Below the pieces are notes generated by a model. That model searched no databases. It was not told where the DNA came from and was given only the letters and a program-made list of their open reading frames with translations. Made by a program: the position numbers and the translations under genes. A stretch of 64,000 nt of DNA. Origin: Deefgea tanakiae. GTDB taxonomy: Bacteria; Pseudomonadota; Gammaproteobacteria; Burkholderiales; Chitinibacteraceae. How positions within the stretch are numbered: the stretch's first letter is position 1; the number at the start of each line of letters is the position of its first letter. Location of the stretch: assembly GCF_019665765.1 (NCBI RefSeq), contig NZ_CP081150.1, positions 3,100,001-3,164,000 of the forward strand, read 5' to 3'. This document shows positions 3,771 through 35,091 of the stretch, piece by piece.

Positions 3771-3816
3771 TGGGAAAGATTTTATTAATTAAGAATTACT
3801 CAGAATTAAATAAGAA
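3771..3816. repeat. Transposon left end with TnsB-type repeats
   Basis: This holds the terminal TGGGAAAG followed by AT-rich repeats ending in AAGAATT, CAGAATT and AAGAACC. They resemble the repeats at the right end and are probably TnsB binding sites. The arrangement is inferred from sequence similarity only. Confidence 0.7.
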
Positions 3817-3897
3817 CCCCCCCTGAAAACTGTCTATATTGGCTTAAAGGTGCAGCTATGGGCTGCGCAAATCATTGATGCTGCGCGTGTGGTAATT

Positions 3898-4584
3898 ATG
3901 CCAACAAGACGAATTACTCGAAGTCCAGTTAAGGTCACAGGGACAGTTCCTGATGGACAAGTATTTGAATCTACCCTTGAAGAAGATTTTTTCACCTTAC
4001 TGCGCTTTAATCGGCTGATCGAAAGTTTTGAGGCACAACCAGTCACCGTTGAATGGCTAGATGATGCAAAAAAGATTAGGACTTACACTCCAGACGTTTT
4101 GGTGCGCTACCGAAAAGATTTACAGGAGTCGGCAAACTTGTCGCCTGTTCTTTGTGAGGTTAAGCCTGATTTCAACGAAGCCTCGAAATCACCTCGCCGT
4201 CGAGGACCTCCACGCACTGAAAATTCAACGGAAAATGAACAGAAATGGGCCGCCGCTCGCGTATTTGCAGCAAGACGTGGCTGGGAATTCAAGGTTGTGC
4301 GCGAAAGTGAAATCCGTACGCCTTACCTGGCCAATGTGCGCTTTCTATTACGTTATGTGGAACGAGATGTAGAGTCTCGTTATGAGAGTGCGTTGTTAGC
4401 TGTGCTGGTCGAACATTCTGTGCTTTCACTTGAGGCGTGGGCAGGACAGTTATCTAAATCCTTGGAGGAACGGGCAAAGCTTCTTCCTACTTGTTATCGA
4501 TTGATCGCTTTACAAACTGTTGTTGCCGATCTTAAGGCCCCGCTTACATTGAATACTCTGATCAAAGCGAGGGGCAATGTCTAA
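3898..4584 (+). CDS. tnsA: TnsA endonuclease (Tn7-like transposition)
   Basis: A 228-residue restriction-like endonuclease that in Tn7 cleaves the 5' ends of the element, allowing cut-and-paste transposition with TnsB. The catalytic layout is visible from this start: E28 in STLEEDFF, D66 in YTPDVLV, and E87-x-K89 in CEVKPD. I chose the ATG at 3898, giving MPTRRITRSP, a typical TnsA opening, although a GTG at 3850 keeps the frame open. The gene overlaps tnsB by 8 bases. It is the first gene inside the left end, as in Tn7. Confidence 0.9.
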   Translation: MPTRRITRSPVKVTGTVPDGQVFESTLEEDFFTLLRFNRLIESFEAQPVTVEWLDDAKKIRTYTPDVLVRYRKDLQESANLSPVLCEVKPDFNEASKSPRRRGPPRTENSTENEQKWAAARVFAARRGWEFKVVRESEIRTPYLANVRFLLRYVERDVESRYESALLAVLVEHSVLSLEAWAGQLSKSLEERAKLLPTCYRLIALQTVVADLKAPLTLNTLIKARGNV

Positions 4585-6589
4585 TCAAATTCGGTTAGGT
4601 GAAAACGCACTAGTTTGTTATGAAGGCGAAAATTGGCGTATTTTGCACATTCAGAGTTTTGATCGTGTGCTTGCTGCACGAGTGCGAGATGGAAGGCCAG
4701 AGTTTCTCTCTGTTGAGAAGCTTCTGCCACCAATAACTGCAAGCGCATCGGATTCTGATTCGATTGTTGATGAGGGCGACAATTCCTCACCAAATCAAAT
4801 AAGTATGCCTCAGAGTAACGCCCGAATCATTCGGCAACTCCCTCCTGAGAGCGAGTTATCCCCAGAGCAGATTCAGGAGCGTCAAGTAGCAGTTGAAGAA
4901 TTTCAGCTACTGCTTGCGATTCAGCAGGCTGCACGAAGTGAGCGCAAGAACTTGATTCAACAACTTTGTGAACGCTTCGGTTATAACGAAGCAACTGCAT
5001 ATCGCCGTTTGCAAATAGTGAAGACTCATGGCGTAGCAGATGCACTATTGAGAAGCGTACGCTCGGATGTTGGCAAAAACCGGGTAAAGGCCGAAGTTAT
5101 TGATCTTATTCAAGAGCATCTGAAGACACATCGTTTTATTCCCACTCCCAAAACAGTTCCGGCAATATTGCAATTAATCAATGGCGTTTGCCGAAAGAAT
5201 GGCTGGCAACAGATTAGCCTTTCTACGCTTCGCAAGTTTGAGCGCGAGGTGCCGCTTAAGCAAAAATTAGAAGCTCAAGGACAAAAGAAAAAAGCTGCGG
5301 ATGCATTTCGAACCAAGGCTGGCCATTTGCCAAACAAAGACTATCCTCTAGCAATTATTCAGGTTGACCATACGCCACTCCAGATTTGTTTAGTGGATGA
5401 AATTGATCGTTTGCCGATTGGTGATCCTTGGTTGACGTTGGTTATCGATGCATATAGCCGCATGGTGCTCGGATTCTGCCTCACGTTTGACCCACCAAGT
5501 ACCTTGTCGACCGGCTTAGCTTTAGCTCATGCGTTTTTGCCTAAAGAAGATTATTTACGTGCTCAGGGTGTGCATGGTGAATGGCCCTGCTGGGGGTTTC
5601 CTGACCTCATTCTGGTCGACAATGCAGCTGAACTAAATGGTCGGATGATGCATGGTGCACGTCAGCGCTATCGTTTCACATTGCGGGATCGACCGGTAGG
5701 AGCCCCCAATTTTGGGGGGCACGTTGAGAGTGCATTTCGTACGTTCATGTATGAATTTAAAAGCGTCCCTGGTACTAAATTCTCAAATCCAGTTGAGCGT
5801 GGCGAATATGATTCTGAGGGGCGATCGATATTTACGATTGCAGAATTCGAGTCCTTTTTTACAGAGTTTTTGGTCAATGATTATCATCTGCGTGAACACT
5901 CTGGTGATGGCATGGAAGGTAAATCACCGCTGCTGAAATGGAGACAAGGCGTATTTGAGGGCGACATTATGCCTCCTACGGGGTTGCCGGACAGGCCAAG
6001 TGATCCCTTATCACTTCGTATATCTTTGATGCCATTCGAGCGTCGGACTGTACGCAATGGCGTCATCAACATTTTGGCTGAGGAATACCATAGTGGTGCT
6101 CTGACTTTGATCAGCGATGCGGTTGATCTAACAAAGACGCTTGAGGACCGAAAGTTTGAGGTTCGCTACGATCCTCGCAATATTTCAAAGGTTTGGCTCT
6201 ACTTTGTACCAAATAGTAATTATATCGAAGTGCCGTTCGCTGATCTTCGTAAAAGCCCGATTAGCCTTTGGGAGCGTGATGCGCGCAAACGAAGCAGAGG
6301 CAATCCTACGGAGCAATTCTTGGATCAACGTTATGAGAGTCAGTTACGCCGCGAGGATATGAAGGAAAGTGCCGCCAAAAGAACCAAACGTCAGCGTTTG
6401 GAAGGCGATAAGGCACGGCGTCGTGCCCAAGAGGCTTTAGTGCAGCCTGCACCTCCTATTTCCAAGGCGCAAGCTAAAACACCAGGTAAACAAAAAATAG
6501 ATCCAGATCGCTTGAAGGCGTTGCGTGATAAGGTTCGTGCTGCAGATCCATTTTCCTTAAAAAAAGAGGACTCTGATGATGACCGCTGA
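4577..6589 (+). CDS. tnsB: TnsB transposase (DDE)
   Basis: This 670-residue retroviral-integrase-fold transposase (Mu/TniA/TnsB group) binds the end repeats and cuts and joins 3' ends. The DDE triad is visible: D264 in QVDHT, D348 in LVDNA, and E384 in GGHVESAF. Upstream is a helix-turn-helix region (about 120-230) for end binding. Downstream are the beta-barrel and a basic C-terminal tail (about 590-670), which in Tn7 contacts TnsC. It overlaps tnsA upstream and tnsC downstream, so the three are translated as one operon. Confidence 0.95.
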   Translation: MSNQIRLGENALVCYEGENWRILHIQSFDRVLAARVRDGRPEFLSVEKLLPPITASASDSDSIVDEGDNSSPNQISMPQSNARIIRQLPPESELSPEQIQERQVAVEEFQLLLAIQQAARSERKNLIQQLCERFGYNEATAYRRLQIVKTHGVADALLRSVRSDVGKNRVKAEVIDLIQEHLKTHRFIPTPKTVPAILQLINGVCRKNGWQQISLSTLRKFEREVPLKQKLEAQGQKKKAADAFRTKAGHLPNKDYPLAIIQVDHTPLQICLVDEIDRLPIGDPWLTLVIDAYSRMVLGFCLTFDPPSTLSTGLALAHAFLPKEDYLRAQGVHGEWPCWGFPDLILVDNAAELNGRMMHGARQRYRFTLRDRPVGAPNFGGHVESAFRTFMYEFKSVPGTKFSNPVERGEYDSEGRSIFTIAEFESFFTEFLVNDYHLREHSGDGMEGKSPLLKWRQGVFEGDIMPPTGLPDRPSDPLSLRISLMPFERRTVRNGVINILAEEYHSGALTLISDAVDLTKTLEDRKFEVRYDPRNISKVWLYFVPNSNYIEVPFADLRKSPISLWERDARKRSRGNPTEQFLDQRYESQLRREDMKESAAKRTKRQRLEGDKARRRAQEALVQPAPPISKAQAKTPGKQKIDPDRLKALRDKVRAADPFSLKKEDSDDDR

Positions 6590-7475
6590 GCAGCGTTACC
6601 CTCATTTAGCACCTGCAGCAGCCCAGATGGCAGACGCTGATAACGCCAGTAGAATTGAATACATTCGTCGGGATCGATTTATTTGTCACAAACGAGCAGA
6701 AGAAATATTAATCGAGTTGGAAGTACTGTGCCGAATGGAAGATGCCGTACGGCCTCAAGGTCGTTTATTGGTCGGACGTTCCCTGATGGGCAAGAGCTCG
6801 ATTTTTGACGAATTTTTGCGTAATCATCGTGCCAGCGATAATCCTGATGGTGAAGCTGCGGTGGTACCTGTGCTTGTTGTTCAGTATCCAGAAGTCGCTC
6901 AGAAAGGGATATATCCTGAAATCCTGAACAAGCTTGGGGCGAAGATGCCGGCCAATTCAAAGTTACAAGATTTACGCAAAGCGGCAATCAATTTATTACA
7001 TCGTGTCGGTTTACGAATTTTGTTGATTGATGAACTTCATAATGTTTTGGAAGGCAGTGCAAATGCTCAGCGTAAAGGGCTCAATTCAATTAAGTACTTG
7101 ATGAACGAATTACGCCGGCCAGTGGTTTGTGCAGGAACGATCGAAGTTTTAAATGCAATCAAAAGTGATCCCCAGATGTACAGCCGGCTAAAACGACTTC
7201 CATTGGCACGCTTTGCCGATGACATGGATTTTTTGGAGCTGCTAGTTGGTTTTGAAATGGCCTTACCTTTGCGCAAACCATCAGGGCTAGATGATGCAGA
7301 ACTGAGTTCCCTGATATTTCAAGTTACTCGGGGCGTTGTAGGGGAAGTTTCAGACTTACTCAACAGTGCGGCAATATATGCAATTGAGGAGGAAGTCGAG
7401 TGCATTACGCTCGAAGTGTTAAAGGCAGTAACTGGGCAATGGCCATCCGATGAAGATATTGTAAAGATGCTTTGA
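6576..7475 (+). CDS. tnsC: TnsC/TniB AAA+ transposition regulator
   Basis: This 299-residue ATPase links target-site recognition by TniQ to the TnsAB transposase. Walker A is GRSLMGKS (residues 67-74) and Walker B is ILLIDELHN (D152, E153). The size fits the short TniB-like TnsC proteins rather than the 555-residue Tn7 TnsC. It overlaps the tnsB end by 14 bases and is followed 9 bases later by tniQ. Confidence 0.93.
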   Translation: MMTAEQRYPHLAPAAAQMADADNASRIEYIRRDRFICHKRAEEILIELEVLCRMEDAVRPQGRLLVGRSLMGKSSIFDEFLRNHRASDNPDGEAAVVPVLVVQYPEVAQKGIYPEILNKLGAKMPANSKLQDLRKAAINLLHRVGLRILLIDELHNVLEGSANAQRKGLNSIKYLMNELRRPVVCAGTIEVLNAIKSDPQMYSRLKRLPLARFADDMDFLELLVGFEMALPLRKPSGLDDAELSSLIFQVTRGVVGEVSDLLNSAAIYAIEEEVECITLEVLKAVTGQWPSDEDIVKML

Positions 7476-7484
7476 GCTATTCTA

Positions 7485-9047
7485 ATGCCTTCACAGATCT
7501 ATGGTCTGACCGGCGCAATTTTACCGATCCATCCTCAGCCCTATCCCGATGAATTACTTACTCATTGGTTTTTGCGGCTTGCCCACGCAAACAGCTTAAA
7601 AGCGCAAACTTTAGCAGACCGAATATTTGGCCGGTATAGCGTCTTCTGGGCGCGAGACCAGGACAAGTTTGCTTCTCCCATTGTGATTCAAAAATTGGCT
7701 GATTTGGCAGGGAAAGCACCGGAAGACATTCACGCGCTGACTTTGGCTGCATATGAGGGAACGCTATACCCTGAGCATAATGCACATGGCCATACCCGCT
7801 GGATTCTTCCTCTGGGAATCTATCACCGGACGTGGAAACGTTTTGGATTGCAGTTCTGCCCATTGTGCCTTGCCGAAGATGCAGAGCCTTATTTTAGGCG
7901 TGCTTGGAGATTGGCATTTTCGACTGTATGCGATAGGCATGGCATCTTGATGCATGACTGCTGCCATCGCTGTGGAGCACCTGTTGCGTTTTTCAGAAAT
8001 GATGTTGGGTATCGTGCGCGTCATCAATTTAAATCGTCAGCCTGCTGCAGTATATGCGGCACGGATCTTTCACGTGCCCCCGCTTACGATCCCCCTGGAA
8101 CCGATGGTCAAACTTTGGCGCAGTTGCGTTCCCTTGCCCTTGCATGTTCGACTGGATGGTGGTTTGTTGGTTCTGAAAACCTTGCATATAGCCATCTTTA
8201 CTTTGATGTTTTACATCGATTGGCTGTGTTGCTTGCTTCCGCAAGGGGCGCAAAATTATTGAAGGCAGTTGAAGATCAGATAGGAATAACTCCTCTACAT
8301 AAATATGAAACTCAGCGTAAGGTGTTCGAACTACGGTCAATCGAGGAACGTCATTGGTTGGTGCTTATGGCGCTGTGGCTGTTACAGGATTGGCCAGATC
8401 GATTTGTAAGGACATGTGAAAGTGCTCGTATGTGGAAATCTTGGCTTTTAGCAGATACCCCCCCACCCTGGTGGTTCGAACGAGTGGTGAAAGAGCAGCT
8501 AGATCATTCTCAATATTGCCCAAATGCAGAAGAAATACAGTGTGCAGCAGGTTATTTGAAGCAAAGTGGCCGCCTGGTTAAGCAAAATTCGTTACGAGAA
8601 ATAATGGGCTACCGAAATGCGAAAATGATTCAACCTTATGCAGTAAAGCCAAACTGGCATTGGCCTTGTACTGATGCTGAATATGATTGGTTGTTGATGT
8701 GTGCAGAGGAACAAATCCGTAGATTACAACCCGGTAGTTTTCAGTACCAACTGATGGAACGTGATCGGGTCATCGTTGCTTTGATGAAAGCAACGAGATG
8801 GCATGGGTCTTATATTGTGCACTTGAAGTGCATTGACATGGCTATGGTGCTTGAGATTTTACGGGATAGTCCTGACGTGCGCGGTGCGCTAGTCGATTAC
8901 GTTGAAAAAACGCGCACAGCAATGCTTGGGGATAATCATTCTGAATCATTATTTGTTGGAGGTGGGCGACATGGTTTTGGTATTGACGCTCTTGCGTACA
9001 GAATCAAGGCGCTATTTTTGATGTCCCCCCCAACTGATTCTGCTTGA
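7485..9047 (+). CDS. tniQ: TniQ/TnsD-like target selector
   Basis: A 520-residue TniQ-family protein. The N-terminal TniQ domain shows LPIHPQPYPDELLTHWFLRLAHAN. It is followed by a zinc-binding region with CPLC, C-x-RHG, CC-x-RCG and CSICG pairs (about residues 125-190), then a long C-terminal part suited to binding a specific attachment site. Its length resembles TnsD (508 residues in Tn7) rather than the short TniQ used with CRISPR effectors. The likely target is the comM sequence in which the element sits; this is inference from position. It closes the transposition operon. Confidence 0.9.
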   Translation: MPSQIYGLTGAILPIHPQPYPDELLTHWFLRLAHANSLKAQTLADRIFGRYSVFWARDQDKFASPIVIQKLADLAGKAPEDIHALTLAAYEGTLYPEHNAHGHTRWILPLGIYHRTWKRFGLQFCPLCLAEDAEPYFRRAWRLAFSTVCDRHGILMHDCCHRCGAPVAFFRNDVGYRARHQFKSSACCSICGTDLSRAPAYDPPGTDGQTLAQLRSLALACSTGWWFVGSENLAYSHLYFDVLHRLAVLLASARGAKLLKAVEDQIGITPLHKYETQRKVFELRSIEERHWLVLMALWLLQDWPDRFVRTCESARMWKSWLLADTPPPWWFERVVKEQLDHSQYCPNAEEIQCAAGYLKQSGRLVKQNSLREIMGYRNAKMIQPYAVKPNWHWPCTDAEYDWLLMCAEEQIRRLQPGSFQYQLMERDRVIVALMKATRWHGSYIVHLKCIDMAMVLEILRDSPDVRGALVDYVEKTRTAMLGDNHSESLFVGGGRHGFGIDALAYRIKALFLMSPPTDSA

Positions 9048-9306
9048 AGTTCCAAGTAGGCTTTATTTGATTTATCATGGGTTCTCTTTGAGTGATCTGT
9101 TCAAGAACCAAAATCAGTGTTTAGGCTTATCGAGAACCAATGTAGCCTTTGTCAATTAAAGCCGAAGCGTGTACACGTTGGCTATTGTCATCGTTGGTGC
9201 TTATTGTTCTAAGCGAAGCGTATTTAGATATGTCCCGAAAGTGCAGCTTAGCACCTTTGGCTTAGGAACCGAGATAATCCATACGGGTTAAATGAAGTTT
9301 TAAAAT

Positions 9307-9870
9307 TTACGCTCGGAGCGAGATATATAGACCCGGGACACTTAGGAGCACACCAACGATACCTATGACAAAGCCCCAGAAGCTGTACTTTTTTTGCTCG
9401 ACAATTTCGCGTTGATTTGAGGAATACAACTCACTAAGTGACGATGCTAATTGAGCTATGGTGTCAGTTGTGCCACTAATCTCGCTAAGACGAGAAAGCT
9501 GAAGACTAATATTCTCAGGTAGCTCTGCATATGGCTCGCGCGCTTGGTGTCTCGAAAGCAGTATTCGGATGGCATCGCAGTGCTTCGTAAGCTCAGGATC
9601 TTCGCCAGATAATGCTTCTGAGTGAAGTACTCTCAGGGATAGCAGTACTGCTTTGCGATCCTGATTCCAGCGTTCCGCTATATGCTCCATATCCTCAAAC
9701 GTAAGTATTTCTTTGTGAATCGCGGAGCGGAGTTGCTGGCGAAAGCGTTTTTTCCAGTTCGATTTGGCCGTGTCTATTACTATTGGAATGATCGATACCA
9801 TCGCCCCAAGAAAAACACCAATAAGAATTGGAGAGAAGCTAACAAGAAATGTGGTCGCAGTCGCAGACAT
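9307..9870 (-). CDS. Two-TM membrane protein, unknown
   Basis: I do not recognise this 187-residue protein. A hydrophobic segment near residues 8-33 (FLVSFSPILIGVFLGAMVSI) is followed by a basic patch (KKRFRQQLR). A roughly 110-residue helical, charged region comes next, then a second hydrophobic segment near 162-184 (FWGFVIGIVGVLLSVPGLYI). Both ends are thus membrane-anchored with a soluble middle. It is the first cargo gene after tniQ, convergent with it, and AT-richer than the tns genes. A role as a small membrane effector or cargo adaptation protein is possible, but nothing in the sequence proves it. Confidence 0.6.
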   Translation of the reverse strand: MSATATTFLVSFSPILIGVFLGAMVSIIPIVIDTAKSNWKKRFRQQLRSAIHKEILTFEDMEHIAERWNQDRKAVLLSLRVLHSEALSGEDPELTKHCDAIRILLSRHQAREPYAELPENISLQLSRLSEISGTTDTIAQLASSLSELYSSNQREIVEQKKYSFWGFVIGIVGVLLSVPGLYISLRA

Positions 9871-9939
9871 TTTTGAGTCCTAGCATTTGAAAAACAGGTT
9901 GCCTTTAGCCGATACCGGTTGACTTAAGTTTTTGACATT

Positions 9940-10269
9940 GTGCTCAATGTCGGTTGCGGCTCCATGCATGATCTTGAGGCCTTTGAAATGGTCGCAGCGC
10001 GAGGTTTGAAATTGTCTAACAGACCCGGGACCGTCCAATGTCCTGCTAATGAAATGCCGCAGATTCTTCCACTGTTACTTTCCATTTACGCGCGTGCATA
10101 CTACTTCGGGTCTATTACTCGCTATCGTCCACATCACTATCCTTCTATCACCGATAGCGCTTTCGGCTCGCGTGTCCAAGATTTCATCACTGGCCAGCCG
10201 CAACAGTTTTTGTACCTATTAGCGTCGGAATTTGCAAAACGTGAGATAGCCAAGCCATCCATTCATTGA
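9940..10269 (+). pseudogene. C-terminal fragment of a YaaC-like protein
   Basis: 109 codons are open. The segment from about residue 35 (CPANEMPQILPLLLSIYARAY, then SITRYRPHHYPSI and QQFLYLLASEF) resembles the C-terminal region of YaaC-like proteins, which normally exceed 300 residues. No N-terminal part is present upstream, so this is most likely a truncated remnant carried in the cargo. The apparent GTG start at 9940 is not supported by a ribosome binding site. Confidence 0.45.
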
Positions 10270-10367
10270 ATACAAGGCCGTTCCAACAAATCATTTCACC
10301 GGATTGCGCGAAAAGCCGTGCAGTCCGGTGAATTAGTACGTTCAGGTCTACCATAAAGTTGTGAGTA

Positions 10368-10394
10368 GACATTCATGTCTCGAACATGAATGTC
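10368..10394. repeat. Perfect inverted repeat GACATTCATGT-5-ACATGAATGTC
   Basis: Two 11-bp arms (10368-10378 and 10384-10394) with a 5-base loop and no T run. It looks more like a protein binding site or recombination site than a terminator. No second copy was noticed in the window. Confidence 0.6.
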
Positions 10395-10580
10395 CGCGAA
10401 AGCCTAATTGCTGACAAAAAGCTGCAGGTCAAATATTCAGCAGCTTGCGAATCACTCATTAGCAAGGTTGATCACAAGCGATCAGAATGGGGGGCATATC
10501 CGCTAGAATCCGCAGCAGTCCACCATTCTTAGTCATTTAGCTATCAAAGCTCATGCATTTAGAGATCTTTAATTAGCAAT

Positions 10581-10795: not shown

Positions 10796-11911
10796 CTACT
10801 TTACGACTCTTAACGCAGGTTTCCAAGATGCTGGCAAGTCGTACAGCCCAGCAAGTTCTCCGATAAAGAGCCCTAGAATTTGTACTATGTCCGACTCGGT
10901 GTAGCCTAGATGCCCCCTAAAATGATCAAAAAAGGCGGGCAAAAGAGATGGAACTTCTCGTGGGAACTGGAGTTCCGGCGGCTCAGCAAGACGATAACCC
11001 TGCATTGACATCTGGCGCCAAAGATAGCCAGATTGACCTTCCGTGATTTTACGCAGCGTTTTAGCTCTGACTATGAGCGCGCCCATTGATACTTTCCATG
11101 TGGGTTTTAGGCTGGCTGCTCTCGCAATATCAATATTTCGAAGATAGGGACCAATGTCATTTTTGGGCATCAAGAGTGCGGATGCAAATATATTAGCTTC
11201 GTCTTCCATATTTTCTGAGGGATATTGGTGCAAAACAACATGCCCTAATTCATGTGCTAACGTAAATCGCCAACGATCCCCTGGCAAATTTTTGTTCATA
11301 AAGATCAGTGGTGGCAATCCTGCTAATCGATATGTAAGCCCATCTATTTTTGCGTCACCCATGTCGCAAGGAATAATAATACAACCAGCTCTTTCGCAAA
11401 GGACGGTTAAGTTATCTAGCGGCCCATTGGGTAAATACCATGCCCTTCGTACATATTCGGCAGCCTGTTCAGGCCCATCTGACAATTCGTCAATATCGTA
11501 TCGTGGAAGCGGAAGGTCCGGTGCTAATTCGATACTCGACAGCAGAGTTCTGATGTGAGCAATCCGCACATTGGTTTCAGCTAAAAGCTTATCAAGCATC
11601 TTTTGACCTACAGATGCTTGCTTTCGAAACATTGGATGTGCGCTCATAGGCGCACCATAAAGTTGTTCTCTTTGTGAAAAGAAAGAAACTTCGCATCGGA
11701 GGGTATTGGCAAATTTATGCAATAACTCTTCTGACTCTATCGGTTTGAGGCCTTGTTCAATTTTTGAGAGCAAGCCTTGGCTTATACCAAGGCTATTGGC
11801 TAATTCTGATTGAGTTAATCCCAGCATTCTTCTGCGAAGTTGCAGCATTTCATATTGAATCGGGCGATTAACTATTTCCCCCCGTTCCATTTTGCTCTGC
11901 CACTTGGTCAT
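10796..11911 (-). CDS. HTH + ImmA/IrrE metallopeptidase
   Basis: The protein has an N-terminal Xre-type helix-turn-helix (LTQSELANSLGISQGLLSKIEQG) followed by an ImmA/IrrE zinc peptidase domain with FTLAHELGHVVLH (HExxH) and a downstream acidic segment (EDEANIFASALLMP). Such fusions cleave or sense repressors and occur as components of toxin-antitoxin-like defence pairs. The frame is open to 12070, but that extension lies inside the upstream gene. ATG 11911 (MTKWQSK) overlaps that gene by 44 bases, and ATG 11890 or 11848 are alternatives. It is co-directional with the 209-residue gene at 11868-12497, so the two are probably one unit. Confidence 0.85.
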   Translation of the reverse strand: MTKWQSKMERGEIVNRPIQYEMLQLRRRMLGLTQSELANSLGISQGLLSKIEQGLKPIESEELLHKFANTLRCEVSFFSQREQLYGAPMSAHPMFRKQASVGQKMLDKLLAETNVRIAHIRTLLSSIELAPDLPLPRYDIDELSDGPEQAAEYVRRAWYLPNGPLDNLTVLCERAGCIIIPCDMGDAKIDGLTYRLAGLPPLIFMNKNLPGDRWRFTLAHELGHVVLHQYPSENMEDEANIFASALLMPKNDIGPYLRNIDIARAASLKPTWKVSMGALIVRAKTLRKITEGQSGYLWRQMSMQGYRLAEPPELQFPREVPSLLPAFFDHFRGHLGYTESDIVQILGLFIGELAGLYDLPASWKPALRVVK

Positions 11912-15746: not shown

Positions 15747-15764
15747 GCCGTAATTATTCTCAAT

Positions 15765-15836
15765 ATACAACTGTAGAAGTATACAACACGAAAATTCATA
15801 GTTGCAGTTGCATAATATTCGCCACACAGTTATATT
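15765..15836 (+). promoter_or_regulatory. Putative jetA promoter and WYL operator region
   Basis: A sigma70-like promoter is visible: TTGCAT (15808-15813), 17 bp spacing, TATATT (15831-15836), 36 bp before the jetA ATG. Just upstream, ATACAAC occurs as a direct repeat (15765 and 15781), and CAACTG/CAGTTG forms an inverted pair (15768-15773 and 15805-15810). These are candidate operators for the divergent WYL protein. Confidence 0.5.
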
Positions 15837-15872
15837 CAATGATAACTAATTAATAAGATTCGTTGCTTTGTT

Positions 15873-17992: not shown

Positions 17993-17999
17993 TAAATCC

Positions 18000-25921: not shown

Positions 25922-25936
25922 CTATCTGCACTAAGA

Positions 25937-27667
25937 TCAATATGGCTCCTTTGAGCGTTTAACTATTTTCCGAAGCAAGTCGGTTTCCCCTTTTCTTAGT
26001 GGGCGCTGCCCAAAAAGTGGCCCATTTATCCAGATCAATCGGTGAAGTACATCTAAAATACTAGTAGCTCCTGCTGATTCAATCATACAAACTATTCTGT
26101 CATTAAAATTAGACGACTGTGTTCGATTTGCGTATGCAAGACAAAACTCCTCAATTTCAGTGTCTATGTAATTAGCAGCTAAGCGCACTGCAATGATGTG
26201 ATCATCTGCATCTTCAGTAATGTGGTCTCGCATTAGTATTAGCGCTGATGCAATGATGCCATTTATATTAACCTTAAGAATGCCAGCCCAAATCTTTTGT
26301 AGTTTCGGCACAATATCGGTCTTAAAAAGAGTATCGCCACGTATTAATTTTGCCGTTGACTCATCCTGACCTGGAAATGGCTGCCAAGTCAGATGAAGTT
26401 TTTCTATCACTTGGTATGCTTTAATCGCTTGCGTTACGATTCGAGGTGTTTCTGGTAAAGCTGAAATCACATCACTAAGATCCGATACTAGCTCAGCCCC
26501 CCGAAGATCAACCGTACTTGTGCTGGGCCCTGCACCTAGTTCCTGGATATTGCTGCAGCCTGGGGCTTTAGTTCCCTGCTGCTGTTTATTAGTTCGCAAG
26601 ATGTGCTTATTTACTAGGTCAGGAAAACTAGGTCTGCCCTCATAGGCTTCAGTGAGCCCTAAATATGCTAACAAGTTTGACACTTGCGAGTCGCTGAGTT
26701 CGATCTTTTGCGCGTTATGATCCGCTGGATCATCATTGGCAGTGTTATCTCTTTTCAAGGGATCATTAGGAATGGATAACGATTTCGAGGACGTGTAATA
26801 CAAAGATTGAAATGGAAAAGGATGAGTACAGCTAGTTAATTGCTCTACAAGAAATACTCGCGACGTATCTGTAACAAGCCAACGTCCACGCGTAGTGAGG
26901 TCAGTACTTCCGAAAAATGGAAAGCTAGTCTTGGGGTAGTAGCTCTGCTTATTTACTAAAGAGGCAACATGACTATTAACTATCCATCTCGCCGCATTTT
27001 TAGCCTGTTTGCAAAATGCAATCCGGGCGACAGTGGCTGCCGCGACGCCGGATAAATCTGCTGCGAGTGCAATGTTGGCAGTTCCAGTTCTTTTGTTTAA
27101 CTTGGCGTTTTGAAATAGCTGGTCTAGTGCAAATGCCCCAGAAAATATTCGCTTAAGGAAGCTGCCACTGGAGCCAAAGTAAAACCTAATTAGCTCCATG
27201 CACGGAACGACTAAGATCGCACCATCGTCTAGGTCAAAACGAAGACAATGAGTTTGGGTATGCTCTCGGTGACCTTCGAATAAATCAAACGGAAGCAAAT
27301 ATTGTGGGTGGTTGCTGTTTTTCTCGAGTGGCGCCCCGATTGGTAAAACGCAAATAGAATCTGATGTTACTTGGAGATTAAATGTTTCCTGCGTTTGCGT
27401 ATCTACTTGACCAGTCCATTGTTGGTTTTCCCAGATATCACCAATCCTAAACCGGCGTAAAAAAGCGACCGGTAGACGGATTGGGATGCGATTTGTGAAA
27501 TCGCACTTCATCTCGCTACTGCCTGCTGATTGTATGTATGGAGCAAAAACCACCGTGATCAGCGTACCTCTGAGCCCGTCAATGATATTGCCATACCAGA
27601 TGATTCGATATTGCCCTTGTCCAAGCTGTCTAAGAGCGTAGAACGAGAGGTTTGGTGATTCAATCAT
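25937..27667 (-). CDS. Large unknown cargo protein (576 aa)
   Basis: Function not recognised. The N-terminal half is beta-rich (YRIIWYGNIIDGLRGTLITVVF; the GDIWENQQWTGQV segment) and contains an ELIRFYFGSSGSFLKRIFSG segment near residues 160-180. A polar linker (about 310-400) separates it from a helical C-terminal domain ending KGETDLLRKIVKRSKEPY. The order of the N-terminal segments recalls the layout of TnsE-like Tn7 proteins, but I see no conserved TnsE C-terminus. It lies 15 bases upstream of the MbcA-like antitoxin gene on the same strand, so the two are probably an operon. AT-rich compared with Wadjet. Confidence 0.65.
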   Translation of the reverse strand: MIESPNLSFYALRQLGQGQYRIIWYGNIIDGLRGTLITVVFAPYIQSAGSSEMKCDFTNRIPIRLPVAFLRRFRIGDIWENQQWTGQVDTQTQETFNLQVTSDSICVLPIGAPLEKNSNHPQYLLPFDLFEGHREHTQTHCLRFDLDDGAILVVPCMELIRFYFGSSGSFLKRIFSGAFALDQLFQNAKLNKRTGTANIALAADLSGVAAATVARIAFCKQAKNAARWIVNSHVASLVNKQSYYPKTSFPFFGSTDLTTRGRWLVTDTSRVFLVEQLTSCTHPFPFQSLYYTSSKSLSIPNDPLKRDNTANDDPADHNAQKIELSDSQVSNLLAYLGLTEAYEGRPSFPDLVNKHILRTNKQQQGTKAPGCSNIQELGAGPSTSTVDLRGAELVSDLSDVISALPETPRIVTQAIKAYQVIEKLHLTWQPFPGQDESTAKLIRGDTLFKTDIVPKLQKIWAGILKVNINGIIASALILMRDHITEDADDHIIAVRLAANYIDTEIEEFCLAYANRTQSSNFNDRIVCMIESAGATSILDVLHRLIWINGPLFGQRPLRKGETDLLRKIVKRSKEPY

Positions 27668-28019: not shown

Positions 28020-28033
28020 TTCTGAAGCCCCAA

Positions 28034-28231: not shown

Positions 28232-28243
28232 GATGAACGCACC

Positions 28244-29101
28244 TCATTTTCCTGTGTTGTCCATAAAAATTGACCAGTTTTTTTGCGCCATGCAATCCGC
28301 AATCAAATCATGATACGCGTTTATCGCACTTCGAACATCGTCTTTTTCACTGTAATCAACAATCTCAAGTCGAAGCCTATTACGTAGAACGTCTATCCCA
28401 AGTCGTCTTCCATGTGAGTGCCAAATTTTGTTATCACCGAGTTGCGCAGCAATTTCATGCGCCCGAAGATTGCGTTGCTCTGGTGTAACCGGTTCACCAG
28501 AAGAGGCGTGCGTTGACCAGTTTTTGAATTTGTATTTCACCAACCATTCTTCTAGCAAAGAAACCGACAAATCCCGTGCTTGCTCGTATCGACGCAGAAG
28601 TGCCATATCTTGACTTTGAGCGATGGCAAATTCAACCCCAGTCAGAGTATTATTAGCTGCTTTTTGCAGAATTTCTTCATACTTATCTAAATATCCAAGA
28701 GCAGGAACCCAGTGGCCTTCCTTTGATTGTACTTGTGGATCAATAGGACCAAGAGCTGATGAATAGTCCATATAGATTGCGTCACCGGACATGCAGAAAA
28801 TTGTGCCTGCTGACATAGCCATGTTTGGCACAATAAACACCACTTCGCTATAAAAGTGACGAACCATCACAACCATTTGCTCCACTGTCTCGACGCTACC
28901 ACCAGGTGTATTCAAGACAATCGCAAGTTTTTTTTGCTCGGTGTTTGCTGCATGGGTAGCTTCAAGAGTGCTACGAAACCAATTTAAATAATCGGGACGA
29001 ATGTCTGCATAGTAGGCCAGGACAGAGCAATTGAATTGCTTTTCAATTTCCTCTCTTCGATAGCGCAAAACGCCTGTAATAACATTATCTAAATCGTTCA
29101 T
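28244..29101 (-). CDS. SDH-type serine protease (ClpP/SppA fold)
   Basis: A 285-residue protein of the serine-dehydrogenase-proteinase family, which shares the ClpP/SppA fold. Seen: LAIVLNTPGGSVETVEQ (oxyanion loop), NMAMSAGTIFCMSGDAIYM (the nucleophile serine in MSAGT), and SALGPIDPQVQ. There is no signal peptide, so it acts in the cytosol or at the inner membrane face. It leads a three-gene operon with a 65-residue soluble and a 69-residue membrane protein. Related protease genes are common in mobile islands; a defence role is possible but unproven. Confidence 0.85.
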   Translation of the reverse strand: MNDLDNVITGVLRYRREEIEKQFNCSVLAYYADIRPDYLNWFRSTLEATHAANTEQKKLAIVLNTPGGSVETVEQMVVMVRHFYSEVVFIVPNMAMSAGTIFCMSGDAIYMDYSSALGPIDPQVQSKEGHWVPALGYLDKYEEILQKAANNTLTGVEFAIAQSQDMALLRRYEQARDLSVSLLEEWLVKYKFKNWSTHASSGEPVTPEQRNLRAHEIAAQLGDNKIWHSHGRRLGIDVLRNRLRLEIVDYSEKDDVRSAINAYHDLIADCMAQKNWSIFMDNTGK

Positions 29102-29520: not shown

Positions 29521-30315
29521 ATGAGTTGTATGGCAGGCAAGATAAAATCTAAAAAGAAAAAGCGGGTAAGTGCTTTAGCTAAGGCCGCTTGTACTTTAAT
29601 TCAGCAACGAAACGAGCCGTCGCGGCTCCCCTTACCAGATTTGCCAACTGATATGGCCCTATCGCCAGCCGATCAATGGACATCACTACTATGGGCTATT
29701 GATGCGGCAGAATCATTCGGTGCAGATGGACTTCGCGGATTAACACTGAGCTTGGCTCGCATCGTTCAAGGTGAGGGCCTTAAAGCTTTCCTGTTTGATG
29801 TGCGTCGTGGTGCGAAATCGAGCCTAAACCCGGAAACATTGCTTTGGGATCGTGATTTAGCGGTCAATTCCGCTGGCGATTCATTGGGTAGTCTCCGAGA
29901 TCAGCCTTTGAAAACATCAAAAGTAAAAATTCGGGATTCTGCATTCTTCGCCCCTGTGTGGGAGCGTTGGCGATTAATACGGGCATTAGCGTATTTAGGG
30001 CGCGGTTTGCGATGGGGGGCTTGGTCTCAAGAAGATAATCATCGTGGTGTGGCTTGGCTTCCCTGGCCCCTAGTGTGGATAACAAATGGTAATCACAGTT
30101 CAATGTCTGCCTTGATGCGTGGGGCCGGGGCATTCAAGTGCTATGCAACGTACGATCTCACTGCGATATTGCAGTCTGTTCGAACTGATGGAATTCATTG
30201 GTATAGAAACGATGATGGATCAATTCTTGGCCCAGTTCATTCAATGGCAATGGCTGGAATTTTCGTCATTGGCCAACGTCTAGGCTATGAAACCACGAAC
30301 AATGATCAAGCCTGA
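29521..30315 (+). CDS. Unknown cargo protein (DUF6710-like)
   Basis: A 264-residue soluble protein with a lysine-rich start (KIKSKKKKR). The C-terminal half contains WERWRLIRALAYLGRG, then EDNHRGVAWLPWPLVWITNGNHSSMSALMRGAG and a final TDGIHWYR segment. This order, especially N-H-R ... W-L-P-W ... G-N-H-S, resembles the DUF6710 family of unknown function. The start could be ATG 29521 or ATG 29530 (MAGKIKS); neither has a clear ribosome binding site. A single gene flanked by the SDH operon and LysE. Confidence 0.65.
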   Translation: MSCMAGKIKSKKKKRVSALAKAACTLIQQRNEPSRLPLPDLPTDMALSPADQWTSLLWAIDAAESFGADGLRGLTLSLARIVQGEGLKAFLFDVRRGAKSSLNPETLLWDRDLAVNSAGDSLGSLRDQPLKTSKVKIRDSAFFAPVWERWRLIRALAYLGRGLRWGAWSQEDNHRGVAWLPWPLVWITNGNHSSMSALMRGAGAFKCYATYDLTAILQSVRTDGIHWYRNDDGSILGPVHSMAMAGIFVIGQRLGYETTNNDQA

Positions 30316-30401
30316 AAGATGAAGAAAAATAACTGTGAGTTTTCAAATTATTTGCGACCAATTCAATGATGAGTTTTTACACTTTTAAATACAGATAGTC
30401 C

Positions 30402-31040
30402 TCAAGACAGAACCAAGCCATTCCAGCACATGCCCAAGCTGATGAGCCAAAGTACAATTGCACTTCCTTGATGTATGCCACCAACCCTGCTGCCGAATTT
30501 AGACATGATCCGGGGATGACCAGCACTCCAAGCCACAAAGCAGTCCCAAGCAAAGACGGCAAAAAACATCCAGATGCCACATATGGCTTGCCAAGCAACC
30601 GCGGTATTTCGCCCAATCAGTACAGTAAACAATGCAAGATAGAACAACGCATTCTTTGGATTGAGAATACCGGAAAGGAATCCTGCCAGCAGATGGTTTT
30701 TCATCAAGCTAGATATGTCTGCATCATTCGATTCCGGCAAACTCACGGTATGCCGCCTAGCGCGCCAGAAACACAACCCAAGCCATGCCAAGTAAATGCA
30801 TCCGGACCAGTATAAAAGTCCGTAAAGAAAAGGCTGATCGCGAAGAAATGTAAAGCCCGCGATGGCGATGACGATGAAAACCCCGTTTGCAAGCGCAATG
30901 CCTACACTGGTGATCACGCCCGCTCTTCTGCCATGGAGCAGTGAGTTTCGTACGACGATAAAGAAATCCGGCCCAGGGCTCAGCAGCGCCAGAAAATGCG
31001 CCCCAATAATCACGAATAACTGCTGCCAGCTCATACTCAA
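30402..31040 (-). CDS. LysE/RhtB family exporter
   Basis: 212 residues with the family opening LLSPGPDFFIVVRNSLLHGRRAG and about six hydrophobic helices. A central motif LNPKNALFYLALF is typical of amino acid exporters of the RhtB group. It sits in the inner membrane; the substrate cannot be told. It is downstream of, and co-directional with, an AraC-type regulator gene that probably controls it. It is a metabolic passenger within the transposon. Confidence 0.9.
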   Translation of the reverse strand: MSMSWQQLFVIIGAHFLALLSPGPDFFIVVRNSLLHGRRAGVITSVGIALANGVFIVIAIAGFTFLRDQPFLYGLLYWSGCIYLAWLGLCFWRARRHTVSLPESNDADISSLMKNHLLAGFLSGILNPKNALFYLALFTVLIGRNTAVAWQAICGIWMFFAVFAWDCFVAWSAGHPRIMSKFGSRVGGIHQGSAIVLWLISLGMCWNGLVLS

Positions 31041-31108
31041 CCCCTATTCACTTGGAAAGTGACTCAGTATTCAGCGTTGCAACATCTAAATATTGAAAAA
31101 AAGTGCGG

Positions 31109-31912
31109 TTATGAGCCTTGCCGCATCAGGTATTGGCGTGGGGTGACTGCGACACGTTGTTTAAAAGCATGATGAAAATGGCTTTGGTCCGCGAAGCCTA
31201 AAATTTGAGCCACGTCTGCAAGTGCGCAACCCGTTCGGAGTAAATTTCGCGCCTGGTTGATCCGGCAATCAAGCAGATAGGCATGGGGCGTCATGCCTGT
31301 ATACGCATGAAATGCACGTATAAAATGATATCGGCTGAGGCCAACGATATCAGCCAGCACTGCGACTGGCCAATCGCGGGCATATTGTTCGCTCAGGAGC
31401 AATTGGATAGTACGTAGCCAGCCTGGTGGTTTTATTTCAGGGGTGTAGGTACTGCTGGCAAAAATTTGACCAATTAATTCAATCAGTACGCTTTCCTTAT
31501 AATTCACCGCATATGGTTGGAAAAGCATAGCCGTAAATGCGGTCACCGCGCGGTAACAGCCAAGATCCCGTATCCGAGTCGGATGATGGCGCTTCAAACC
31601 TAGTACCCCCATTTCCAACTCAACCAGAACGCTTTGTACCCAATGGTCATCCAAATACAGCATTTGATAGCTCCAAGCACTGTCTGTGTCCGGATTGCAC
31701 GAATGGACCTGATGGGGCTGGATAACAACTACATCGCCAGCTGCCAGCCGAATTGGTTCCGATCGTTCATATGAAAATGTTGAATACCCAGCGTCAACCA
31801 CACCAATCGACCATGTGGGATGGGTATGTGGGCGGTAACAAGCCCTGCTTTTTTGTGCTCTGCGCACCTCGACAAAAGGTAATCCGGGTTCAGACCAGAA
31901 GATTTGGGACAT
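31109..31912 (-). CDS. AraC-family transcriptional regulator
   Basis: 267 residues: an N-terminal cupin-like sensing domain (CYRPHTHPTWSIGVVDAG; LAAGDVVVIQPHQVHSCNP) and a C-terminal double HTH (AVLADIVGLSRYHFIRAFHAYTGMTPHAYLL; ALADVAQILGFADQSHFHHAFKQRVAVTPRQY). The AraC signature is complete. The frame opens at a TTG (31933); ATG 31912 is the more likely start. AraC genes of this form are often next to LysE exporters, as here, and probably activate them. Confidence 0.9.
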   Translation of the reverse strand: MSQIFWSEPGLPFVEVRRAQKSRACYRPHTHPTWSIGVVDAGYSTFSYERSEPIRLAAGDVVVIQPHQVHSCNPDTDSAWSYQMLYLDDHWVQSVLVELEMGVLGLKRHHPTRIRDLGCYRAVTAFTAMLFQPYAVNYKESVLIELIGQIFASSTYTPEIKPPGWLRTIQLLLSEQYARDWPVAVLADIVGLSRYHFIRAFHAYTGMTPHAYLLDCRINQARNLLRTGCALADVAQILGFADQSHFHHAFKQRVAVTPRQYLMRQGS

Positions 31913-32190
31913 TAGATCATCAACATGAAGCAATCATTAGAATCAGCCAATGCTATGAAATCTAAACCTCAGCAGCAACTAAGGCGTGAGCTGCTGTGCA
32001 ACTTAAGGCTTAGGATTAAGCATTACCAAGTGATTCAAATCACAGGCTTTAGCTTCAGCCGCTCATAGTAAACCGACTAATCAGCGAACCTTATTGTCTG
32101 GGGGTAAATTGCTCTTTTTTTTGGTTTTATGCGGCCCGGCTATCGGTTTAAATTCTGAGGCTGAAAATAGGCTGCGCCAGCTCTGCCAAT

Positions 32191-32601: not shown

Positions 32602-32606
32602 TTTAT

Positions 32607-32813: not shown

Positions 32814-32855
32814 GCCCAGTGGCTCACTTTAATTCTCGATAGGGATAAGAAAGCT

Positions 32856-33527
32856 ATGCGTTTACTCATTCTGATTATATGTTTTTGCTGTGTGCCTGTT
32901 TTTGCCCAACAACAGCTCTCTGGTCAAGTCATTGGCGTCAGTGATGGGGATACCGCGACCATCCTTACTGCAGATCGCAAACCCGTCAAAATTCGTTTAG
33001 CCCAAATCGATGCTCCTGAAAAAGCGCAAGCATTTGGCGAACGCTCAAAACAATCGTTGTCCGATTTAATTTATGGAAAAAATGTCATTGTAGACGTTGA
33101 AACGACTGACAAATATGGACGTACTGTCGGAAAAATTATCGTGGCTGGTATTGATGCCAATTTAGAGCAAATCAAACGTGGTATGGCATGGTTCTACGTG
33201 CAATATGGCAAAGATGCAAAATATCGTGATGCAGAGTCCAAAGCCAAGTCGGCCAAATTAGGCCTGTGGTCCGAGGCTGCTCCAACACCACCTTGGGAAT
33301 GGCGACATAGTGGCAAAGCAACGACTGCGAGTAATACAACACAACCAGTGCAAGCAAAACAGCCAATCAACACAACCTCAAGCTCTGCCAGTTTTAGCTG
33401 TGGTTCAAAGCGCTATTGCAAAGAAATGTCTTCCTGTGAAGAAGCTAAGTTTTATTTACAGCACTGTGGGGCTACAAGAATCGACGGGGATGGCGATGGC
33501 GTGCCGTGTGAGAAGCTTTGCAATTGA
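32856..33527 (+). CDS. Secreted SNase-type nuclease with excalibur domain
   Basis: 223 residues: a signal peptide (LLILIICFCCVPVFA, cleavage after about A17) and a thermonuclease domain with catalytic-site residues in SDGDT, VKIRLAQIDAPE (R47, D52, E55) and KYGRTVG (R89). A Thr/Gln linker leads to a C-terminal excalibur calcium-binding motif (RIDGDGDGVPCEKLC) with flanking cysteines. It should act outside the cytoplasm on DNA or RNA with Ca2+. It is a single gene, divergent from the small membrane-protein ORF, in the right arm of the transposon. Confidence 0.92.
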   Translation: MRLLILIICFCCVPVFAQQQLSGQVIGVSDGDTATILTADRKPVKIRLAQIDAPEKAQAFGERSKQSLSDLIYGKNVIVDVETTDKYGRTVGKIIVAGIDANLEQIKRGMAWFYVQYGKDAKYRDAESKAKSAKLGLWSEAAPTPPWEWRHSGKATTASNTTQPVQAKQPINTTSSSASFSCGSKRYCKEMSSCEEAKFYLQHCGATRIDGDGDGVPCEKLCN

Positions 33528-33593
33528 ACTCAAAATGTCGAAATGGTGTTGGCTTTTGCTGCACGGTCAAAGTCGCCCTAGCGCTTACTGAAA

Positions 33594-34874
33594 TTATGCT
33601 TCTTGGTCGGCTACCGCATGATTGCGATGTAGGTTCGCAATCACTGTGATCAATCGATTAATCGGTTCGGCTAGTCGTTTCGGCAATACACGGTGCTGAG
33701 TATATTCCATATGGGCGACCCAATGATGAGCGATCCACACATCCTCTTCAGGTCGTTCGTTGTCGACACCGTTGCAATATTTGTACCCAACGAGTGCATC
33801 GCAATGTGAAAGCAGAATGCGCGCCAGCGTCATGTGAAAACGATGAGCCTGAAGATCTGTTGGGCCTTTAGGGCGTGGCAGGGTCAATCTTAGGCATTGT
33901 TGATCGTTGAACTCACGCCAGTCTGGCCCAACGACCTGTCCCGCGCGTTCCAGCATTTTGCGTGCCTGCTCGTTTTTGCCATTGACCAAGGCAACAGCAA
34001 CCGCATTTTTTGGATATTCCAGTTTTTCGGCGAGGAAGTTCAACCAGCGAACTAGCCTGCTTAGTGTGTCATTTTTAGCAAATACAAGGAACTGATGCCG
34101 TTGCTCTTTATCAAGAAATGCAGGCAATTGTGCATAAAGTGGGTACAGCAAGTCGTGTAGATAAATGTAGGTTTGTCGGCGTCCTTGCTCATGGCTTCGC
34201 GTAGTTGCGGTCAATACCCGCTGTGCCCATTCCGGCGTGAGTTCGGCTAGCGTCATCTCGGTGATATCGATTGAGATAAGTGGGAATCCGAGCGACTTTC
34301 CGATTAAAGCCTTACGTCCATCGAAGGCATGACCAAGTTCAATTTCAACGCCCCCCAGGACCATTGGCCCCGTCTGAATCGGCGGTCCGAGCACCGCAAC
34401 ATCGAGCCGGAATTTGCTACCAAATGGCGTCTCAAGTGGATACTCAGTGGTCACCTGATCAGCTCCTAGTAGCAGGTTGCCTTCAAGTGGATAGTCTGAT
34501 GCATCCGCATCTTTGAATGCCCATGGCATTGCCAATCCTGCACTCAAGCGTCGTGAAAGTTCAGCTGCGACAAGTTCTTTTGCCCGACGATGTTCCGGAC
34601 TTTCTTGCGCAATGCGTTGCCAACTGGCTTCCTCATTGTCAAAGTGAGCTTTGAGATTAAAGGCATGCAGGGAAGGAAGCGTTCGAAAATGAGCCCGCTG
34701 ACGTAACTTTCCATCTTTAAATGAGGGGCTGACCCACGTCACCATCTGTCGTGGCATACCGGGTGACACCAATGGCCATAACTTGCGAGCATGTTCCCTG
34801 CTGCGGACGTCACGCGCAGTAATCTGGACTTGGAAAATCCCTTTCCGTGAAAAGACAACAATTGCTTCGTTCAC
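33594..34874 (-). CDS. Unknown protein, possible PD-(D/E)xK nuclease, last gene before right end
   Basis: A 426-residue protein of unknown family. The middle contains KFRLDVAVLGPPIQTG, then VLGGVEIELGHAFDGRKALIGKSLGFPLISIDI, an order of D then E-x-E with a following K and an SIDI strand that resembles a PD-(D/E)xK nuclease core. The rest is helical and basic. The frame is open to 35024, but GTG 34874 has AAGGGA upstream and avoids an odd leader; I prefer it. It is the cargo gene closest to the right end (about 220 bases), convergent with the SNase gene. Confidence 0.55.
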   Translation of the reverse strand: MNEAIVVFSRKGIFQVQITARDVRSREHARKLWPLVSPGMPRQMVTWVSPSFKDGKLRQRAHFRTLPSLHAFNLKAHFDNEEASWQRIAQESPEHRRAKELVAAELSRRLSAGLAMPWAFKDADASDYPLEGNLLLGADQVTTEYPLETPFGSKFRLDVAVLGPPIQTGPMVLGGVEIELGHAFDGRKALIGKSLGFPLISIDITEMTLAELTPEWAQRVLTATTRSHEQGRRQTYIYLHDLLYPLYAQLPAFLDKEQRHQFLVFAKNDTLSRLVRWLNFLAEKLEYPKNAVAVALVNGKNEQARKMLERAGQVVGPDWREFNDQQCLRLTLPRPKGPTDLQAHRFHMTLARILLSHCDALVGYKYCNGVDNERPEEDVWIAHHWVAHMEYTQHRVLPKRLAEPINRLITVIANLHRNHAVADQEA

Positions 34875-35026
34875 TCGATACCTATCCCTTGTGGAGGACG
34901 ACTTAATGCACTGTCTGAAATTGTTGAGCACAATGGCTTGTGGCCATGGGATCAAGAACGAGCGCAAGCGTGATGTCCTGCGTGGGAGATAGTTTACTTT
35001 AAAACCGGTATGCGCCTCCGGCAAGA

Positions 35027-35091
35027 AATTCTCAGTTATCGAAATTTCTCAATTAATTAAATCTTTTTCTCAATTATCAATACCTTCCCCA
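35027..35091. repeat. Transposon right end with TnsB-type repeats
   Basis: Read on the minus strand from the tip: TGGGGAAGGTATTGATAATTGAG, then two more copies of a T-(C/T)-GATAA/TTAA-TTGAGAA-type repeat. The cores TTGAGAA, TTGAGAA and CTGAGAA start at bases 19, 40 and 57 from the tip. These are probable TnsB binding sites, closely spaced as at Tn7 ends. Confidence 0.75.

Follow-up and report, generated by a model that had tools for sequence, protein, structure and literature searches.

A comM-inserted Tn7-like transposon of Deefgea tanakiae whose long TniQ may read its own target

The transposon and the gene it interrupts

A 64,000-nucleotide stretch of the Deefgea tanakiae genome (RefSeq GCF_019665765.1, contig NZ_CP081150.1, positions 3,100,001 to 3,164,000; called 'the window', with positions counted from its first base) was found to hold a Tn7-like element carrying tnsA, tnsB, tnsC, tniQ and tnsE at 3771-35091, inside the gene comM. 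The 5-bp target site duplication typical of Tn7-like transposons was present at both flanks (GCCAC on the + strand, GTGGC on the comM strand; left copy 3766-3770, right copy 35092-35096), as were inverted terminal repeats starting with TGGG. The left end (3771-3795, + strand; TGGGAAAGATTTTATTAATTAAG) and the reverse complement of the right end (35046-35091, - strand; TGGGGAAGGTATTGATAATTGAG) were identical at 17 of 23 positions, against 13 or fewer in 200 shuffles. One further copy of the left terminal unit was located inside the right end (16 of 18 positions, equalled in none of 40 shuffles). Weaker repeats inside each end (13 of 18 positions) were at chance level, being equalled in 11 and 6 of 40 shuffles, respectively. 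Of the several TnsB-type repeats that the ends of Tn7-like transposons carry, only the one inner copy in the right end stood above chance.

The left end of the element is occupied by four genes on the + strand: tnsA (3850-4584; a 244-amino-acid (aa) endonuclease, Pfam Tn7_TnsA-like_N, 2.1e-14), tnsB (4577-6589; a 670-aa DDE transposase, Mu-transpos_C, 1.8e-8), tnsC (6576-7475; a 299-aa AAA+ regulator, TniB, 4e-58) and a long form of tniQ (7485-9047; 520 aa, TniQ, 1.4e-29, residues 14-155). TnsB was 47-58% identical to its counterparts in three comM-located relatives (L002, L003 and L041; see below). A fifth gene, on the - strand at 25937-27667 (576 aa), had no Pfam match. When its family (n = 15; loci L056, L127 and L128 left out) was compared by hhalign in local mode with six annotated Tn7-type TnsE proteins, a match over 457 columns was obtained (97.8%, E = 8.9e-13), the remaining comparisons of the family giving E values of at least 0.14, and on this ground the gene was called tnsE, a probable second target selector. 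It had also been considered as TnsF, the comM selector of Tn6022 described below, and was rejected as such, since it showed no TnsF match and most of the protein aligned with the TnsE family. According to the available text of PMC11406308, nearly all elements that target comM have a TnsE homologue. No lead came from a PDB search with the TnsE family profile, a plasmid search with the TnsE-like protein of L002, a search of viral contigs with TniQ and TnsE, or Rfam and tRNA scans of the window.

The insertion lies in comM directly after VGGG (codon 282) and ahead of SVPQPGEISLAHHGVLFLDE. Both fragments are on the - strand: the 5' (N-terminal) part, codons 1-282, at 35092-35937 (Pfam ChlI and Mg_chelatase; continuous in sister species), and the 3' (C-terminal) part, codons 282-497 including the left copy of the duplication, at 3118-3770 (Pfam Mg_chelatase and Mg_chelatase_C; tblastn with the joined gene). 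Removal of the insert restored an open frame of 497 codons. Among the seven genomes of the genus that were searched, including the host's own, all six sister species were uninterrupted at codon 282; the comM frame was full-length in five (498-504 aa), and in the sixth (G399) its only break was a contig end at codon 76, the frame running on across codon 282, so that a further comM insertion in G399 was rejected. Another Tn7-like element was seen in G399 (L089, 4599-10957; TniQ frame of 446 aa, TnsE adjoining tnsA), and no comM fragment was found in the stretch fetched around it. The N-terminal part of comM, used as a query, had a single match in the D. tanakiae genome, and therefore no spare comM was seen. 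These results uphold what the first-pass annotation had described, namely a complete Tn7-like transposon that lies in comM with both of its ends intact, a GTGGC duplication, the tnsABC-tniQ order at the left end and an in-frame 497-codon comM on removal of the insert, and the intact gene in related genomes agrees with it.

The locus would thus record a single site-specific insertion into codon 282 that generated the 5-bp duplication. It could instead be an old, immobile island that was inherited or was passed on through homologous recombination at comM, a form of transfer that is known for the AbaR islands. We consider this very improbable, because tnsA, tnsB, tnsC, tniQ and tnsE are all full-length open frames, both ends and the exact duplication are intact, and six of six sister species lack the element.

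Relatives were collected by a TniQ search of 399 genomes of the host's order, 42 of which had a match; besides the window's own place, the best 17 of 53 places were taken, together with three of five places from a search of the class, and in later surveys all new places except G867:C2:147194 and G874:C79. Two loci were added, from Undibacterium crateris (L003) and from a gammaproteobacterial metagenome-assembled genome (L002). Some loci share a genome, G243 contributing three and G235 and G867 two apiece; the TniQ cores of L127 and L128 are identical, and L123 stops at a contig edge. Most surveys were queried with TniQ proteins bearing the C-terminal extension described below, which biases the collection toward such loci, and the search for comM covered at most about 20 kb of sequence surrounding each tniQ.

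In many of the fetched relatives, comM was cut near codon 282 (tblastn with the joined gene). Duplications read by eye were GTGGC in the window, GGCGG in L042 and L043, and GCGGC in L072, and these four exactly read junctions all fell on the VGGG codons and agreed within 1 nucleotide. Cutting of comM has thus been repeated by Tn7-like elements well beyond Acinetobacter. The first pass had called the VGGG junction a conserved site, and its description of the element as betaproteobacterial is in line with a near relative lying in comM of U. crateris. Two loci need qualification: L054 was tallied as comM-positive, yet its comM match runs unbroken through codon 282 and it is therefore not a case of this site, and L071 aligns only from codon 303. 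In L087 (3837-5481), the comM fragment on the side of tnsA is the N-terminal one, an orientation opposite to that in the window, so that elements with the extension may be able to insert either way round. The element ends begin with TGGG in the window and, as read by eye, with TGGG in L041, TGGT in L003, and TGT in L042, L043 and L072.

The TniQ extension and the choice of comM

Tn7-like elements are a natural source of programmable DNA insertion, and the coupling of TniQ to different target readers is a central question. According to the available text of PMC10293859 (Faure et al. 2023), Tn6022 finds comM with a short TniQ and TnsF. The latter is a zinc-finger protein that also contains a degenerate tyrosine recombinase part; it binds the Walker B region of comM and was tied to the tyrosine recombinase superfamily by structure. 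As a TnsF reference we used the 480-aa protein encoded directly after a 361-aa TniQ on an Acinetobacter baumannii plasmid (L063), the name being assigned here from its position, its cysteine-rich N-terminal part and the description given in that paper; the counterpart in L072 has 478 aa. With this query, 2 of 274 genomes were matched and the D. tanakiae genome was not. The TnsF profile found nothing in the window element; among the fetched stretches scanned it matched only L062, L063, L070 and L072, and none of the stretches around extension-bearing loci. As L072 carries TnsF, a TnsF-bearing element and elements in which TnsF is not detectable share the same comM site.

That shared position, and the presence in the cargo of several open reading frames (ORFs) with no family match, are what would be expected if the element were targeted in the manner of Tn6022 by a TnsF-like protein that has diverged beyond recognition and is encoded in the cargo or acts in trans. 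Against such a protein stand the negative profile search of the element, the negative query of the host genome and the gene order, as tnsF directly follows tniQ in L063 and L072 whereas the next listed ORF of at least 90 aa after tniQ in the window is on the other strand. We therefore hold a hidden TnsF to be improbable.

The window TniQ is itself longer than the core of the family. From residue 343 onward it aligned with similar extensions in 13 other loci, one of which (L088, a weak member at 1e-7) was kept out of the extension profile and the trees. The extension (residues 343-520; 8511-9044, + strand) comprises a lead-in followed by what profile and hhalign comparisons suggest to be a degenerate half of a tyrosine recombinase catalytic domain. 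A 13-row extension profile run against 177,635 PDB sequences had Escherichia coli XerD as its best match (two entries, E = 1.2e-6 and 1.3e-6; XerD residues 129-227), the next matches being unrelated (E of at least 0.01); a 5-row profile also matched XerD (E = 5.4e-6). In a set of 1,244 sequences, the profile scored 31.6 bits with XerD and 16.8 bits with XerC, relative to maxima of 2.1 and 1.4 for 30 column-shuffled profiles, and the XerD score was still 26.3 bits when the window row was left out. Comparison of the 13 rows with E. coli XerC and XerD by hhalign gave 96.1% and E = 2.9e-9 over 120 columns (template positions 107-231).

The complete catalytic set of the tyrosine recombinases (Arg, Lys, HxxR, Tyr) is absent: by the motif positions that we take to apply in the XerD/XerC alignment, the extension ends before HxxR and Tyr, and the first Arg is not kept. 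It therefore resembles one half of a recombinase domain that is no longer catalytic. Searches of Pfam with five extensions alone, at E values up to 10, gave no lead. No description of a TniQ extension of this kind was found in the available literature on TniQ fusions, TnsF/Tn6022 and Tn7-like transposons in comM, where an unremarked listing in the supplements of PMC10293859 is possible.

The extension goes with comM among the relatives. Of the 46 surveyed loci whose TniQ matched below 1e-10, 14 had it, and a comM fragment was found in the stretches of 13 of these 14, compared with 12 of the 32 without an extension (Fisher p = 8.6e-4, a value that ignores kinship). One natural hybrid was seen, the element L122 (5895-10475). 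Its TnsA, TnsB and TnsC are 65, 73 and 74% identical, respectively, to those of the comM element L116, while its TniQ shares 35% identity with that of L116 and 83 and 81% with the TniQ proteins of L120 and L121, for which comM was not seen in the fetched stretches. No comM fragment was found alongside L122 either, and another short ORF was read by eye in the DNA next to its tnsA. As one case, this hybrid says that the insertion site goes with TniQ; TniQ alone may decide it.

On this basis, we consider it fairly probable that the D. tanakiae element is a comM-inserted Tn7-like transposon whose long TniQ bridges to TnsC and reads comM through its C-terminal extension, so that the comM reader is probably built into TniQ. 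That the extension does the reading is what we infer from its recombinase kinship and its distribution, and several observations weigh against it. The extension showed no sequence similarity to TnsF (hhalign E of 0.74 and 0.24), and its comparisons with TnsF, TnsE, TnsA and four phage integrases all gave E of at least 0.14; the integrases (0.14) do match XerC/XerD. Three TnsF proteins, for their part, showed no sequence similarity to XerC/XerD (0.52). AlphaFold2 predictions of the extension, made with 3 rows each, were poor (mean predicted local distance difference test scores of 35.8 and 38.7, respectively). Correction for phylogeny left only four pairs of loci, one or two in agreement and none contrary, which is not significant. 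L088 has an extension, if a weakly matching one (1e-7), and no comM in its fetched stretch; this locus (7451-10529) carries two tandem TniQ-type genes, the second of which has the weak extension match. Finally, L122 is a single case in which TniQ core and extension changed together.

The 12 loci that hold comM fragments and no extension also weigh against it, and they are mixed. Four of them (L044, L045, L119 and L124) apparently have a TniQ that ends part-way through the extension, and what is left of it matches weakly (E of 0.006, 2.2, 6.6e-5 and 0.053, respectively). Others are L070, which has a TnsF-type fusion, L072, which has TnsF, L071, with a weak extension match (0.003), and L054, whose comM is unbroken at codon 282. 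In a further four (L002, L003, L043 and L048), TniQ stops at the end of the core and neither an extension nor TnsF was detected in the fetched stretch. A 397-aa gene following tniQ in L043 was considered as a selector and rejected, its sequence resembling that of a defence gene, presumably of the DUF4338 type.

These last four elements, with a short TniQ and comM cut at the same codon, speak for a different reading, in which comM is recognised by the conserved TniQ core (about residues 1-335), with the extension serving only to stabilise or regulate the complex. A tree of TniQ cores groups the short-TniQ elements with the window, and L122, where the core changed along with the extension, cannot separate the two. 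On the other side, no comM was seen in the stretches around short-core TniQ proteins from neighbouring clades, some short forms seem to have lost only the later part of an extension (on the weak matches given above), so that their insertions may predate the loss, and the short TniQ of Tn6022 needs TnsF according to the available text of PMC10293859. Recognition by the core alone appears unlikely to us, at a level that still commands attention.

The history of the extension is not a simple one. A single clade of the 13 extension loci was rejected on TnsB plus TnsC (approximately unbiased test, p = 4.5e-5; tree without L053, L056 and L057, in which those genes are broken, absent or cut), which also weighs against reading by the extension, and six changes were needed on the TnsB+TnsC tree and three on the TniQ-core tree. 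Either tniQ has therefore moved between elements, or the extension has repeatedly been lost or gained. More generally, we regard it as an evenly balanced proposition that a recurrent group of comM-homing Tn7-like elements, found here mainly in the host's order, uses one polypeptide, TniQ fused to a dead half-recombinase, to read comM, that recombinase-derived comM readers have been recruited more than once (as separate TnsF and as TniQ extension), and that exchange of tniQ redirects elements to other sites.

If the extension does read comM, TniQ would bind comM through it and recruit TnsC, which would relay the target signal to TnsA and TnsB; these would then cut and join the ends. One long TniQ would replace the separate TniQ and TnsF pair of Tn6022, and such a one-protein reader, if true, would be a simpler, testable counterpart to that pair. 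The TnsE homologue would probably provide a second route, with conjugative plasmids in replication as its targets. In Acinetobacter, according to the available text of PMC11472951, transformation is reduced when ComM is lost, and therefore loss of comM may protect the element: with ComM broken, recombination of incoming foreign DNA would be reduced and the element shielded from removal by transformation. The host might in turn be repaid by defence-type cargo (a Wadjet-like operon and an RmrA-like gene). Activity of the element, an effect of ComM loss on this host and a defensive role of the cargo are likewise what we infer.

Cargo genes

The cargo includes a four-gene operon on the + strand at 15873-23976. 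The operon consists of a jetA-like gene (15873-17228; 451 aa, no PADLOC family), a jetB-like gene (17225-17992; 255 aa), a jetC-like gene for a 1647-aa SMC-type ATPase (17952-22895; GGGKT at residue 65, GQKS at 1507 and LFFDG at 1549) and a jetD-like nuclease gene (22888-23976; 362 aa, PADLOC JetD1, 1.4e-17; Pfam JetD_C, 8.5e-6). A JetC search matched five of 399 genomes of the order, the host's own included; the same four-gene order was kept in L145 and L146 (JetC of 1705 and 1547 aa, respectively) and in part in L147. As in Wadjet (JetABCD), the gene order, SMC-type ATPase motifs and a JetD nuclease homologue are present; unlike in Wadjet, JetA, JetB and JetC of this group have no match to the PADLOC Jet models, and the JetC frames are of 1547-1705 aa. 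The window JetC had only weak matches to PADLOC LmuB (0.0029 at best), and PDB searches with JetC and JetD gave no lead. The operon looks like a diverged Wadjet group, a prediction based on gene order, motifs and the JetD homologue. Wadjet is on record in Tn7-like cargo in the available text of PMC8649781 (a table line with JetD, 34), and comM in Acinetobacter is also interrupted by loci bearing defence systems, as given in the available text of PMC11472951. At the present locus, the comM insertion is combined with a divergent Wadjet-like operon of the anti-plasmid type. A WYL-domain gene divergent from the operon (14874-15839, - strand; Pfam WYL, 1.8e-12) is a possible regulator.

Between tniQ and this operon lie an ORF with no Pfam family (9307-9870, - strand; 187 aa), a YaaC-like ORF (9940-10269, + strand; Pfam YaaC, 5.1e-8) and an RmrA-like gene for a helix-turn-helix and M78 metallopeptidase protein (10796-12070, - strand; PADLOC RmrA, 1.8e-54; Pfam Peptidase_M78). 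Downstream, an Xre/MbcA/ParS antitoxin-like gene (25448-25921, - strand; Pfam) stands directly beside tnsE (25448-27667 together), and a toxin partner was not recognised. It is followed beyond tnsE by genes for a ClpP-like SDH-type protease (28244-29101, - strand; Pfam SDH_protease, 2.7e-13), a DUF6710 protein (29521-30315, + strand; Pfam, 8.9e-29), a LysE-type exporter (30402-31040, - strand; Pfam LysE, 1.2e-26), an AraC-family regulator (31109-31933, - strand; Pfam HTH_AraC) and a Staphylococcal-nuclease-like protein with an Excalibur domain (32856-33527, + strand; Pfam SNase, 2.1e-25).

The gene nearest the right end (33594-35024, - strand) is uncharacterised, a 476-aa frame with a TTG start whose true start is probably near codon 46-51, where the similarity begins. 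Acinetobacter plasmids and pKAZ5 encode proteins that share about 81% identity with its product (13 of the 17 plasmid records with a match), so that this gene is far nearer to Acinetobacter than are the window tns genes; with proteins on Pseudomonas aeruginosa plasmids the identity is 44%. No family was found for it. Its position at the far end and on the opposite strand had made it a candidate for TnsE. This was rejected, as the plasmids carrying relatives have no annotated tns genes within 20 kb (3 of the 17 records with a match; gene table incomplete).

Comparison with known systems

The first-pass annotation had taken the element for a relative of the Tn6022/AbaR family of Acinetobacter with different cargo. 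The difference in cargo is supported by the present data. The insertion site is the same, in the Walker B region of comM and within 1 nucleotide of that in TnsF-bearing L072, but TnsF was not found in the element or the host genome, and TnsB+TnsC fall outside the TnsF-bearing clade. In a quick TnsB+TnsC tree, L062, L063 and L072 formed a clade of their own (Shimodaira-Hasegawa-like approximate likelihood ratio test support of 100), and the window was placed elsewhere, with L003, L041 and L002, and with L048 and L071 on long branches. Tn6022/AbaR and the window element share the tnsABC-tniQ order, the comM position, a TnsE homologue on the opposite strand (25937-27667, - strand) and cargo islands. 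They differ in that tnsF is operonic with a short tniQ in Tn6022/AbaR, while in the window TnsF was found neither in the element nor in the host genome and the selector is apparently fused to TniQ; in the length of TniQ (520 aa, against 361 in L063 or 369 in the available text of PMC10293859); and in the place of tnsE, which lies about three quarters along the window element and not near its far end. Judged from the sequences, the kinship is only broad.

TniQ proteins with recombinase- or TnsF-related parts are also represented by a TniQ-TnsF fusion (GenBank SCZ64694; Faure et al. 2023, available text) and by L070, a comM-located element with a 674-aa TniQ fused to the zinc-finger N-terminal part of TnsF (7723-9792), which resembles the SCZ64694 case. 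SCZ64694 holds the N-terminal part of TnsF and no catalytic-type domain, the reverse of the window TniQ, which has half a catalytic domain and no match to the zinc-finger part of TnsF. Tsy, a YRec/HTH/TnsF-like element (tyrosine recombinase, helix-turn-helix) in comM, likewise targets that gene with a tyrosine recombinase relative; unlike the window element, it is not a Tn7 element and its recombinase is catalytically active. Among the proteins compared, which did not include TnsD of Tn7, the sequence kin of the window extension were XerC and XerD only. Tn7 itself (TnsABCDE) resembles the window element in having TnsA, TnsB, TnsC, a long protein of the TniQ/TnsD type and TnsE, and differs in targeting glmS according to the available text of PMC10293859.

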